Below are positions 2 through 2,017 of a stretch of DNA of 64,000 bases, piece by piece. The translations under genes and the position numbers were made by a program. Source of the DNA: an uncultured Prevotellaceae bacterium (GTDB lineage Bacteria; Bacteroidota; Bacteroidia; Bacteroidales; Bacteroidaceae); contig CACYQD010000005.1 of the NCBI GenBank assembly GCA_902776475.1, positions 1-64,000 on the forward strand, given 5' to 3'. The notes beneath the pieces are model-generated. The model was not told where the DNA came from and ran no database searches. It saw only the letters and a list, made by a program, of their open reading frames with translations. Positions within the stretch are counted from its first letter, which is position 1. Every line of letters starts with the position of its first letter.

Positions 2-451
2 CAGATTGAGACAATTGCAACAGGCAAGAATTTTAGCGCAGTGAGCGTGGGTAAGATGAACGAGATTATCGAGCATGTGCTGCCGATGGGTCCCGAAGTG
101 ACCATCCAGGGCAAGGTGTTCGCAGGGCAAGCCGTGGGTGCTACGGGTAGCGAGCTGTCGTTCCAGACACTGGTTCCCGGACAGGACAGCGGTTTCCTGC
201 ACACCCACAAGACCCACGAGGAACTGTATATCATCCTCAAAGGTGAGGGACAGTATCAGGTGGACGGCGAGATCTTCCCCGTCAGCGAGGGTACCATCGT
301 CCGCGTGGCTCCCGACGGCAAGCGTGCGCTGAAGAACACCGGCACTGAGAACATGACGATGCTCTGCATCCAGTACAGGGCCAACGCCTTCACCGAGGCC
401 GACAGCCCCATGACCGACGGCACGATCCTCCAGGATGAACTGAAATGGTAA
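2..451 (+). CDS. Cupin domain protein (5' end outside window)
   Basis: A small single-domain cupin. The first cupin motif is clear (HTHKTHEELYIILKGEG, with an HxH, a Glu and the closing Gly), and a second strand pair follows (GTIVRVAPDG). In the second motif the usual metal-ligand His after PxG is an Ala, so the metal site may use three ligands or be altered. A GTG at 41 is possible, but the frame stays open to the left edge and the residues before it (TGKNFSAV) look like cupin N-terminal sequence, so I treat the gene as cut by the window. Its end overlaps the next gene by 7 bases, so it is translationally coupled to the macrodomain/sirtuin pair. The substrate is unknown. Confidence 0.85.
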   Translation, partial: QIETIATGKNFSAVSVGKMNEIIEHVLPMGPEVTIQGKVFAGQAVGATGSELSFQTLVPGQDSGFLHTHKTHEELYIILKGEGQYQVDGEIFPVSEGTIVRVAPDGKRALKNTGTENMTMLCIQYRANAFTEADSPMTDGTILQDELKW

Positions 452-1191
452 CGGACCGGCTGGAGAATCTCAAAGGCATCATTCAGTATCTGATGGCTGA
501 TTTGGATATCAGCCATCAGATTCCCCATACGTTGGAAGAGCGGCGGACGATGATGCGGGCTTTGATGAATGTATGGATTCCCAAGGCGATCGATACTACT
601 TTCTTATCGGCACAGGATGCCGAGTTGCAGATGCAACGCGAGGAAAAAGGCGTGGTGACTCCTACCGGCGAAGGGTTGCTGCTTTGGCAAGGAGACATCA
701 CACGCCTAAAAGTGGATGCCATCGTGAACGCCGCCAACGCACAGGCATTGGGCTGCTGGTCGCCCTTGCACAACTGCATCGACAACTGCATCCACTCTGC
801 TGCGGGTATCCAACTGCGCAAGGAGTGTGCCGACATCATGCAGGGTCGTCTTTTGGATACATGCGATGCCATCATCACACAGGGCTACAACCTGCCTGCC
901 AAGCACGTCATCCACACCGTCGGACCGATCATCGAGAGCGGATGGCCTACCGAACATCAAAAGCAACAGCTGGCCCAATGCTACCGCAGTTGTCTTGACC
1001 TGGCCGAAAAGCACCACCTGCAAAGCATCGCTTTCTGCTGCATCTCGACGGGTGTGTTCCATTTCCCCAATGAACTTGCGGCGGAGATTGCCGTCAAAAC
1101 CATAAAAGAGTATCCTCTTCATTCACTCAAAACCATTGTATTCAATGTTTTCCTCGACAAAGACCGTGACATCTACCAGCGACTGGTATGA
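445..1191 (+). CDS. Zinc-type macrodomain protein-ADP-ribose hydrolase
   Basis: Predicted to remove ADP-ribose from modified proteins. A helical N-terminal extension of about 75 residues precedes a macrodomain with the VNAANAQALGC motif. Cys104, His109 and Cys111 (GCWSPLHNC) match the zinc ligands of the macrodomain subclass that is encoded beside class M sirtuins in Staphylococcus and Streptococcus. The helical extension and the length (248 residues) also match that subclass. It starts inside the end of the cupin gene, and the sirtuin gene starts inside its own end, which supports one transcript and a paired writer/eraser function. The biochemical role is inferred from the family. Confidence 0.92.
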   Translation: MVTDRLENLKGIIQYLMADLDISHQIPHTLEERRTMMRALMNVWIPKAIDTTFLSAQDAELQMQREEKGVVTPTGEGLLLWQGDITRLKVDAIVNAANAQALGCWSPLHNCIDNCIHSAAGIQLRKECADIMQGRLLDTCDAIITQGYNLPAKHVIHTVGPIIESGWPTEHQKQQLAQCYRSCLDLAEKHHLQSIAFCCISTGVFHFPNELAAEIAVKTIKEYPLHSLKTIVFNVFLDKDRDIYQRLV

Positions 1192-2017
1192 ACGCATCGC
1201 CAAGACATGTCAACTGATTGCCGAAGCCGACCATATCATCATCGGGGCGGGGGCAGGACTGTCGGCTGCCGCAGGACTGGAGTATTCAGGAGAGGCGTTC
1301 GAACATGTATTCCGCCAATGGATTCTCCGATACGGCATCACCGACCTCTACAGCTCATCGTTCTATCCCTTCGAGACCGAGGAGGAGCGTTGGGCGTATT
1401 GGGCCAAGCACATCTGGTTTGCCCGCTATAGGCCGGAAGCGCAACCGCTCTACAGACAACTGCTGTCGCTCGTCAAGGACAAGGATTACTTCGTCATCAC
1501 CACCAACGTGGACGGTCAGTTCGAGAAGGCGGGGTTCGACCCTCAGCGCATCTTCGCCACACAGGGCGACTATGCCTTTTTCCAACCCGCTGACGGCTCG
1601 CCCAAAGAACTGTATCCCAACCGCCAATGGGTGGAACAGGCGCTGCCAGCCATCCATGACTGCCGCATCCCCACAGAACTGATACCGCATACGCCAGACG
1701 GCAAGCCCGTCGCCATGAACCTTAGATGCGATGACACTTTCGTGGAGGACGAGCATTGGCATGAGCAAGCCGACCGCTACAGCCAGTTTATCGAGAAGTC
1801 ATACGACAAACGGCTGCTGCTCCTGGAGTTCGGAGTGGGTTTCAACACGCCCGTCATCATCCGCTTCCCCTTCGAGCGCATGGCAGCACAGTTCCCCCAA
1901 ACCTCGCTGGTGCGCTTCAACCGCGACTATCCACAGTTGATGACGGCTTCCGCAGCCAACCACTTCACGGCGTTCACGGAAGATGTGACGACAATTCTAC
2001 GCAACATCCAATCATAA
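1136..2017 (+). CDS. Class M sirtuin (SirTM), probable protein ADP-ribosyltransferase
   Basis: Sir2-fold NAD-dependent enzyme. GAGAGLSAAAGLEYSG (residues 37-52) is the NAD-binding motif in its SirTM form rather than the GAGxSxxSGIPDFR form of deacylases. Asn124 (TTNVDG) and Gln143 (ATQGDY) are 19 residues apart, the same spacing as the catalytic Asn118/Gln137 pair reported for the streptococcal SirTM; the deacylase His is thus replaced by Gln. No paired CxxC zinc ribbon is visible. The gene overlaps the macrodomain gene by about 50 bases; a Met three codons in (1145) is an equally possible start. The GcvH-like target and lipoate ligase found with SirTM elsewhere are not seen in this window. 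Confidence 0.9.
   Translation: MYSMFSSTKTVTSTSDWYERIAKTCQLIAEADHIIIGAGAGLSAAAGLEYSGEAFEHVFRQWILRYGITDLYSSSFYPFETEEERWAYWAKHIWFARYRPEAQPLYRQLLSLVKDKDYFVITTNVDGQFEKAGFDPQRIFATQGDYAFFQPADGSPKELYPNRQWVEQALPAIHDCRIPTELIPHTPDGKPVAMNLRCDDTFVEDEHWHEQADRYSQFIEKSYDKRLLLLEFGVGFNTPVIIRFPFERMAAQFPQTSLVRFNRDYPQLMTASAANHFTAFTEDVTTILRNIQS

Follow-up and report, generated by a model that had tools for sequence, protein, structure and literature searches.

What would a class M sirtuin (SirTM) and its zinc-type macrodomain (Zn-Macro) modify when the gene preceding them encodes a cupin? The question is raised by the left end of the window, that is, the whole stretch of 64,000 nucleotides analyzed here (contig CACYQD010000005.1 of an uncultured Prevotellaceae bacterium, assembly GCA_902776475.1), where genes for a Cupin_2 protein, a Zn-Macro and a SirTM overlap on the plus strand (positions 2-2017). 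According to the excerpts of PMC11490716 considered here, no SirTM substrate is known besides GcvH-L, and the targets of other SirTM/Zn-Macro systems are unknown. A preliminary description of the locus had seen no GcvH-L or lipoate ligase within 62 kb to the right and had proposed that the cupin may be the ADP-ribosylated target or a redox sensor. The reading that we favor, with moderate confidence, is that a lone SirTM/Zn-Macro pair, free of GcvH-L, serves as a portable ADP-ribosylation module and was joined here to a pre-existing HxlR-cupin unit.

The cupin, macrodomain and sirtuin genes

Base 1 of the window is also base 1 of its contig (C5), so the left flank is unreadable in the assembly itself (3.64 Mb, 55 contigs, 93.6% complete). 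The cupin gene (2..451, plus strand), recognized by its reading frame, Pfam, an AlphaFold model and comparison with the close relative L039, starts about two codons left of base 1, its full length in L039 being 151 residues. Its stop and the macrodomain start share the seven bases ATGGTAA (445..451), as read from the frames and from relatives, and the macrodomain gene (445..1191, 248 residues) overlaps that of the sirtuin by about 47 bases. For the latter, the open frame begins at TTG 1136 (1136..2017, 293 residues), with ATG 1145 as the likelier start (1145..2017, 290 residues). The three overlapping genes of the preliminary description are borne out by the frames and domain matches.

The macrodomain matches Pfam Macro (E 3.9e-37) and, with 300.3 bits, exceeds the cut-off of 272 for the NCBIfam protein-ADP-ribose hydrolase model NF003163. 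Structure alignment confirms Cys104, His109 and Cys111, named earlier as zinc residues, and 71 of the 73 macrodomain stretches, that of the window among them, conserve this motif (GCx4HxC, here C104-x4-H109-x-C111); one of the other two bears a stop and one is partial. The sirtuin has no Pfam match, and its matches to Sir2-type NCBIfam models are weak and far under cut-off, while the alignment with the SirTM structure (PDB code: 5a3a) reaches an E of 4.4e-45. A glutamine replaces the catalytic histidine, with asparagine and arginine partners (Q139, N120 and R193 numbered from the phenylalanine at 1148; Q140, N121 and R194 from ATG 1145), and the pyrophosphate motif GVGx[NT]TP of SirTM is present as GVGFNTP (229-235). 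The Asn124 and Gln143 given previously are correct for the TTG start and become N121 and Q140 with the likelier ATG. These markers (N, Q, R and GxGxNTP) are kept in all 85 aligned rows. The enzyme activities of both proteins are predicted from these sequence features.

The cupin matches Pfam Cupin_2 (E 4.3e-14), and its AlphaFold model (predicted local distance difference test score, pLDDT, 84.6) finds as best fold match BF4112 (PDB code: 3cew), the nearest solved cupin, followed by DddK and assorted small metal cupins. No specific reaction was assigned from the fold, the function of 3cew being unknown. The cupin motif 1 (HxH...E) is present, with H67, H69, E73 and E74 invariant in 21 of 21 sequences, and besides the invariant acidic residues there is one invariant cysteine, Cys122. 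No motif-2 histidine is seen by eye around P104-R108 in 46 aligned rows. Two invariant histidines with a glutamate pair and no motif-2 histidine make binding or catalysis with a three-ligand metal plausible.

Absence of GcvH-L from the locus and its relatives

Named genomes were scanned with an alignment of eight SirTMs and the best 80 of at least 561 confirmed places were kept, so the counts below describe relatives of the window SirTM and not all SirTMs. Many of these loci are cut by contig ends, and L027/L041 and L030/L060 are likely the same records. The neighborhood was defined as 4 kb upstream and 2 kb downstream of the SirTM/Zn-Macro pair. A macrodomain match is found at 72 of the 80 loci and a GcvH match by profile query at none (0/80); the same query detects GcvH-L in the staphylococcal control locus L173 (4.2e-12), directly before the macrodomain. 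The eight loci without a macrodomain match by the query used include L055, cut by a contig end, and L047, where a cupin immediately precedes SirTM with no macrodomain match in between (L047:9538-10795).

The left flank can be read in L039 (uncultured Prevotellaceae RUG280), whose cupin, macrodomain and SirTM are 93%, 94% and 89% identical to those of the window. The cupin begins there with MRQIETIATG, two codons before window base 1, and is adjoined by a divergent gene for a 124-residue HxlR-family protein (Pfam HxlR, 6.1e-31). Past this gene, frames read by eye correspond to a sigma factor, an rRNA methylase, Tex, L20, IF-3 and threonyl-tRNA synthetase. No GcvH-L or LplA2 is seen by eye in the 8.8 kb readable upstream in L039, nor any OYE or LLM oxidoreductase, families for which no profile search was made. 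A GcvH-L/LplA2 pair just beyond the contig edge was thus rejected, given the HxlR gene in L039 and the 80 loci without GcvH.

In the assembly of the window, a single GcvH match lies on contig C8, beside frames read by eye as gcvT and gcvP, and two proteins match PF03099 (BPL/LplA family), on C1 and on C8, the latter about 2 kb from GcvH. No PF03099 match is present on the window contig as far as it can be read, and among the fetched loci the absence of LplA2 refers to the upstream genes of L039 as read by eye. With HxlR upstream in L039, no GcvH at the 80 loci and the GcvH of the genome encoded elsewhere, the earlier observation that no GcvH-L is visible at the locus is supported. The assembly of L038, another near relative, also ends in this cupin gene, only a few bases from the window's break; perhaps HxlR-cupin units that are almost identical in other strains mislead the assembly at both places.

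HxlR and exchangeable partners near SirTM

HxlR is the most frequent neighbor of SirTM, being found in 37 of the 80 loci, at 95.7 per Mb near the pair versus 5.4 per Mb far from it. Thirty of these 37 genes lie on the opposite strand, and 36 of the 37 proteins carry a cysteine before the KW motif. Other HxlR proteins sense quinones, aldehydes and thiol stress, and those near SirTM may do likewise. Other families recur as well: PNPOx-like proteins, some with ferredoxin domains (22/80), a 290-residue protein of unknown family without a Pfam match in the members scanned (16/80), nitroreductase (15/80), DUF1848 (10/80) and a quinone-reductase-like protein whose nearest model, PIG3, is matched under cut-off (9/80). 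The ACGX peptide of the TIGR04340/TIGR04341 system is near SirTM in 12 loci and its radical SAM enzyme in 17, examples beside Zn-Macro and SirTM being L062:6823-8218, L100, L102 and L176:1728-5924.

Among the 56 loci with at least 3 kb of upstream sequence, 34 have HxlR and 11 the cupin, and at least one enriched partner family is present in 45, or in 50 when families that are hardly or not enriched are included. Also, a second set of 12 Bacteroidales loci, collected with no peptide-pattern step, has HxlR in eight, the cupin in two and GcvH in none; L163 is probably the record of L050, and in L165 HxlR is about 5 kb away. Pfam tallies of the first upstream gene, available for 69 of the 80 loci (PNPOx_N 10, Cupin_2 8, ADH_zinc_N 5, DUF1848 4 and Nitroreductase 3 of 69), and of 77 further neighbors agree with the family models; they list 25 of 51 and 25 of 125 families, respectively, which leaves room for single GcvH-type genes.

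Moreover, HxlR is rare in the 22 genomes with a SirTM locus examined for it, with 0 to 2 matches per genome. Twelve of the 14 cupin-SirTM genomes have exactly one match genome-wide (one of them marginal, 7.4e-4), and HxlR is nearby in 12 of the 14 cupin-SirTM loci. Individual loci show operons of this kind, the two plasmids below independently of the family models. HxlR, cupin, PNPOx-like, macrodomain and SirTM genes stand in one locus of Segatella albensis DSM 11370 (L043), an annotated Roseburia plasmid has the order acgA-acgM-nitroreductase-4Fe4S protein-macrodomain-Sir2, and an annotated Enterococcus casseliflavus plasmid has Rrf2 and SDR-macrodomain-Sir2-PNPOx family protein. L038, the nearest relative, also encodes two ADP-ribosylglycohydrolases (PF03747), at 1.4-4.2 kb on the downstream side of SirTM (L038:3427-6168). 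In the portion of PMC7586716 considered here, HxlR-like and Sir2 genes of Treponema are both up in one mutant, with no link drawn between them.

However, several observations weigh against a stress unit governed by HxlR. By the model used, 22 of the 56 loci with sufficient upstream sequence have no HxlR, and other redox families show little or no enrichment near versus far (AKR 7.8/14.4, SDR 7.8/7.2 and FMN-reductase 12.9/9.0 per Mb). Since the family models derive from genes in the vicinity of SirTM, the near/far ratios are biased upward. The nearest NCBIfam models to HxlR, those of the redox regulators RrpA and RrpB, are matched at 79 and 75 bits, far under their cut-offs of 185 and 175. Finally, HxlR has no match in the assembly of the window, whose contig stops at the expected place of the gene; this is what a single copy located in the gap would give, and the regulator is proposed by comparison with L039 and other relatives.

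Linkage of the cupin to SirTM

The cupin is near SirTM in 14 of the 80 loci, distributed over Bacteroidota, Bacillota and Mycoplasmatota, and lies directly upstream (<100 bp) of the macrodomain or SirTM in eight. Both a long and a short subtype occur at SirTM, the shorter one in L073, L107 and L111 (Bacillota and Mycoplasmatota), being 34-40% identical to the window cupin. When the presence of the cupin is placed on the SirTM tree (66 rows of known state, 16 with cupin), at least seven state changes are needed. The far flanks of these loci, 0.55 Mb in all, contain no cupin match, which makes chance a poor explanation for the linkage.

Nonetheless, the linkage is not exclusive. In the sampled family, the cupin (E<=1e-10) is present in 85 of 301 genomes and a SirTM-like match (E<=0.001) in 15. 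Ten of these 15 have a close SirTM match, and six of the ten also have the cupin: the two are together in G000 and G129 (in the latter, the cupin gene begins some 0.5 kb downstream from SirTM) and apart in the other four (G001, G023, G031 and G192). The SirTM match is partial in G031 and broken by stops in G192, a genome of the same genus, where a macrodomain frame 59% identical to that of the window is followed by a sirtuin frame with several stops (L036:9007-10066). Among the best 29 cupin loci outside the window, L140 is the SirTM locus of G129 and the other 28 have no SirTM or macrodomain in their short flanks. These standalone cupins have HxlR beside them on the opposite strand in 24 of the 28 cases and a PNPOx-like gene next in at least nine. 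The cupin as an obligate companion of SirTM was rejected on these counts.

The junction leads to a similar view. ATGGTAA joins the cupin to the macrodomain in the window, L038 and L039, to a PNPOx-like gene in L119, L121, L131 and L136 and to a second HxlR-like gene in L144, L146 and L147. Because it is common to unrelated downstream genes, the junction looks like an exchange point and, judged from sequence, the coupling is not specific to the macrodomain. The conservation of the cupin beside SirTM, which the preliminary description had put forward for checking, is seen in three phyla and is qualified by the near-identical cupins without SirTM in many relatives.

Tandem and fused sirtuins

Tandem sirtuins without a macrodomain match occur at L031:10032-11619, L033:5274-7541, L034:9086-10562, L037:9031-10618 and L032:1978-3554. 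In the L031 and L033 pairs, the first sirtuin has TTN, QG and GVGMMTP, whereas TSN, EG and a variant of GIG mark the second. The tandem is followed by a Fic gene in L031 and L034 and by genes for a metallo-β-lactamase-fold protein and a cupin in L033. A similar class-M-like pair is carried by a Lactiplantibacillus pentosus plasmid (L174:5010-7182), where the second sirtuin bears a C-terminal Cupin_5 domain (PF06172, 2.2e-6). Of all the observations, this fusion hints most strongly at a direct relation between cupin and sirtuin, although the domain is only a distant relative.

Candidate targets of the pair

A general proposal would be that the pair acts on any small redox or ligand-binding protein to which it has become joined, be it GcvH-L, the cupin, the PNPOx-like ferredoxin proteins or the cysteine-containing ACGX peptide, a proposal that we regard as doubtful. 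If true, the HxlR-cupin-Zn-Macro-SirTM cassette would represent a second, lipoate-independent substrate class, and the metal site or the invariant Cys122 of the cupin could be switched by ADP-ribosylation.

The narrower proposal, already made in the preliminary description, is that the cupin replaces GcvH-L as the ADP-ribosylated substrate. It is in keeping with the direct adjacency and the recurrence of both cupin subtypes in three phyla, with the comparable place of GcvH-L, directly before the macrodomain, in the staphylococcal L173, with the cupin-sirtuin fusion of the Lactiplantibacillus plasmid and with the invariant acidic residues and cysteine of the cupin. However, the cupin is far commoner than SirTM in the sampled family, 28 of the 29 best loci outside the window lack the pair within their short flanks and the place of the cupin near SirTM is taken elsewhere by unrelated proteins. 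In addition, the same residues are invariant in operonic and standalone cupins, and no operon-specific residue is seen by eye among the 46 aligned sequences, of which 16 rows are labeled operonic (the 30 others include L140, which duplicates L025, and L033, whose cupin lies close to tandem sirtuins). The two groups being indistinguishable by eye, the conservation of the cupin is not owed to SirTM, which counts against the cupin as substrate. Together with the shared junction, this weakens a dedicated role, so that the cupin is a possible target and not the favored one, and we consider this proposal decidedly doubtful.

The gene for the target could also lie elsewhere in the genome, the target being a lipoylated protein like canonical GcvH or a subunit of the 2-oxoacid dehydrogenases. 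The genome of the window would supply the components, with GcvH in a gcv-like cluster and two BPL/LplA family proteins; however, 11 of the 22 SirTM-bearing genomes tested have no GcvH match, several of these assemblies being incomplete. The macrodomain adds to this argument. Its nearest solved structure is 8rsi, which we take to be the lone-pair MorMacro, followed by 5kiv/8rsl and 8rsm, the latter presumably SpyMacro, an identity that we assume together with the numbering offset. In the excerpts of PMC11490716, MorMacro did not demodify GcvH-L, and the basic patch residues described there as facing GcvH-L correspond, by alignment to 8rsm with the assumed identity and offset, to Ile, Ser and Gln in the window macrodomain. 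A macrodomain without basic residues for GcvH-L binding fits a target other than GcvH-L, and a lipoylated target appears unlikely.

Another possibility is that SirTM modifies HxlR itself, a small molecule or a peptide, and that ADP-ribosylation tunes the induction of its own operon. The frequency of HxlR near SirTM would agree with this, as would the HxlR genes that lie on the same strand between the cupin and the macrodomain/SirTM in L053, L054, L057, L113 and L162. Nonetheless, HxlR is absent from the 22 loci mentioned above and any stress operon is expected to adjoin a regulator, which leaves this possibility very unlikely. Finally, it is highly improbable that the pair consumes NAD as an anti-phage or toxin-like unit and has the cupin only as a chance neighbor, for although the pair is patchy (13 of 393 Bacteroidales genomes at E<=1e-40, that of the window included) and is carried on plasmids (25 records, at least one of them, L174, of the tandem-sirtuin type), PADLOC at E<=0.001 gave no match for the cupin, macrodomain or SirTM, on which the defense reading was rejected, redox-type partner genes recur near the pair and a macrodomain match is present at 72 of the 80 SirTM loci.

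Proposed working of the operon

In the favored reading, that of a portable pair joined to an HxlR-cupin unit, SirTM and Zn-Macro would have been attached at the 3' end of the pre-existing unit. A regulator of the HxlR family, encoded divergently just left of the contig edge and having the conserved cysteine near its N-terminus, would sense electrophilic or oxidative stress, and its response would release a single mRNA for the cupin, the macrodomain and the sirtuin. The cupin, a small barrel of the metal-binding type, would act on or bind a small reactive molecule, SirTM would use NAD+ to ADP-ribosylate one or a few stress-response proteins and Zn-Macro would take the mark off again. The pair would be portable, being joined elsewhere to other redox-type genes beside HxlR, Rrf2 or AraC-type regulators.

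The neighborhoods offer a set of candidate SirTM targets (the cupin, PNPOx/ferredoxin proteins, the quinone-reductase-like enzyme, nitroreductase, the ACGX peptide and HxlR) and a likely class of inducer for lone pairs, and with them the question of the SirTM target becomes testable. Moreover, a cysteine-rich ACGX peptide beside an ADP-ribosyltransferase and Zn-Macro merits separate attention.

Comparison with known systems

The lack of a lipoyl partner had been taken in the preliminary description as pointing to a different version of the system. That it makes the system new in kind is not supported, since lone SirTM/Zn-Macro pairs are already described as a 'minimal operon' in the excerpts of PMC4518038 and PMC11490716 considered here, likewise as adjacent genes with the same catalytic motifs and without GcvH-L/LplA. 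Unlike those pairs, as they appear in these excerpts, the window has a cupin that precedes and overlaps the macrodomain, and its relatives show HxlR and partners that are exchanged; neither article uses the word 'cupin' in its main text. The linkage of SirTM to HxlR and the cupin and the exchange of partners, not found in print within the open PMC subset, are the new part, whereas the lone pair itself is already known.

A comparison with the extended operon of Staphylococcus and Streptococcus (OYE, LLM, GcvH-L, Zn-Macro, SirTM and LplA2) shows the same order and overlap of Zn-Macro and SirTM and likewise redox neighbors; however, a cupin stands here at the place of GcvH-L, and none of the 80 related SirTMs has a GcvH match nearby. 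The ACGX-repeat peptide/radical SAM system is near SirTM in relatives but not at the window. The closest counterparts of the left part of the locus are the Bacteroidales HxlR-cupin units (L119-L139), whose cupins are 83-92% identical to that of L039 and mostly divergent from HxlR. Where a PNPOx-like gene follows the cupin in some of these units, the window has the macrodomain and SirTM.

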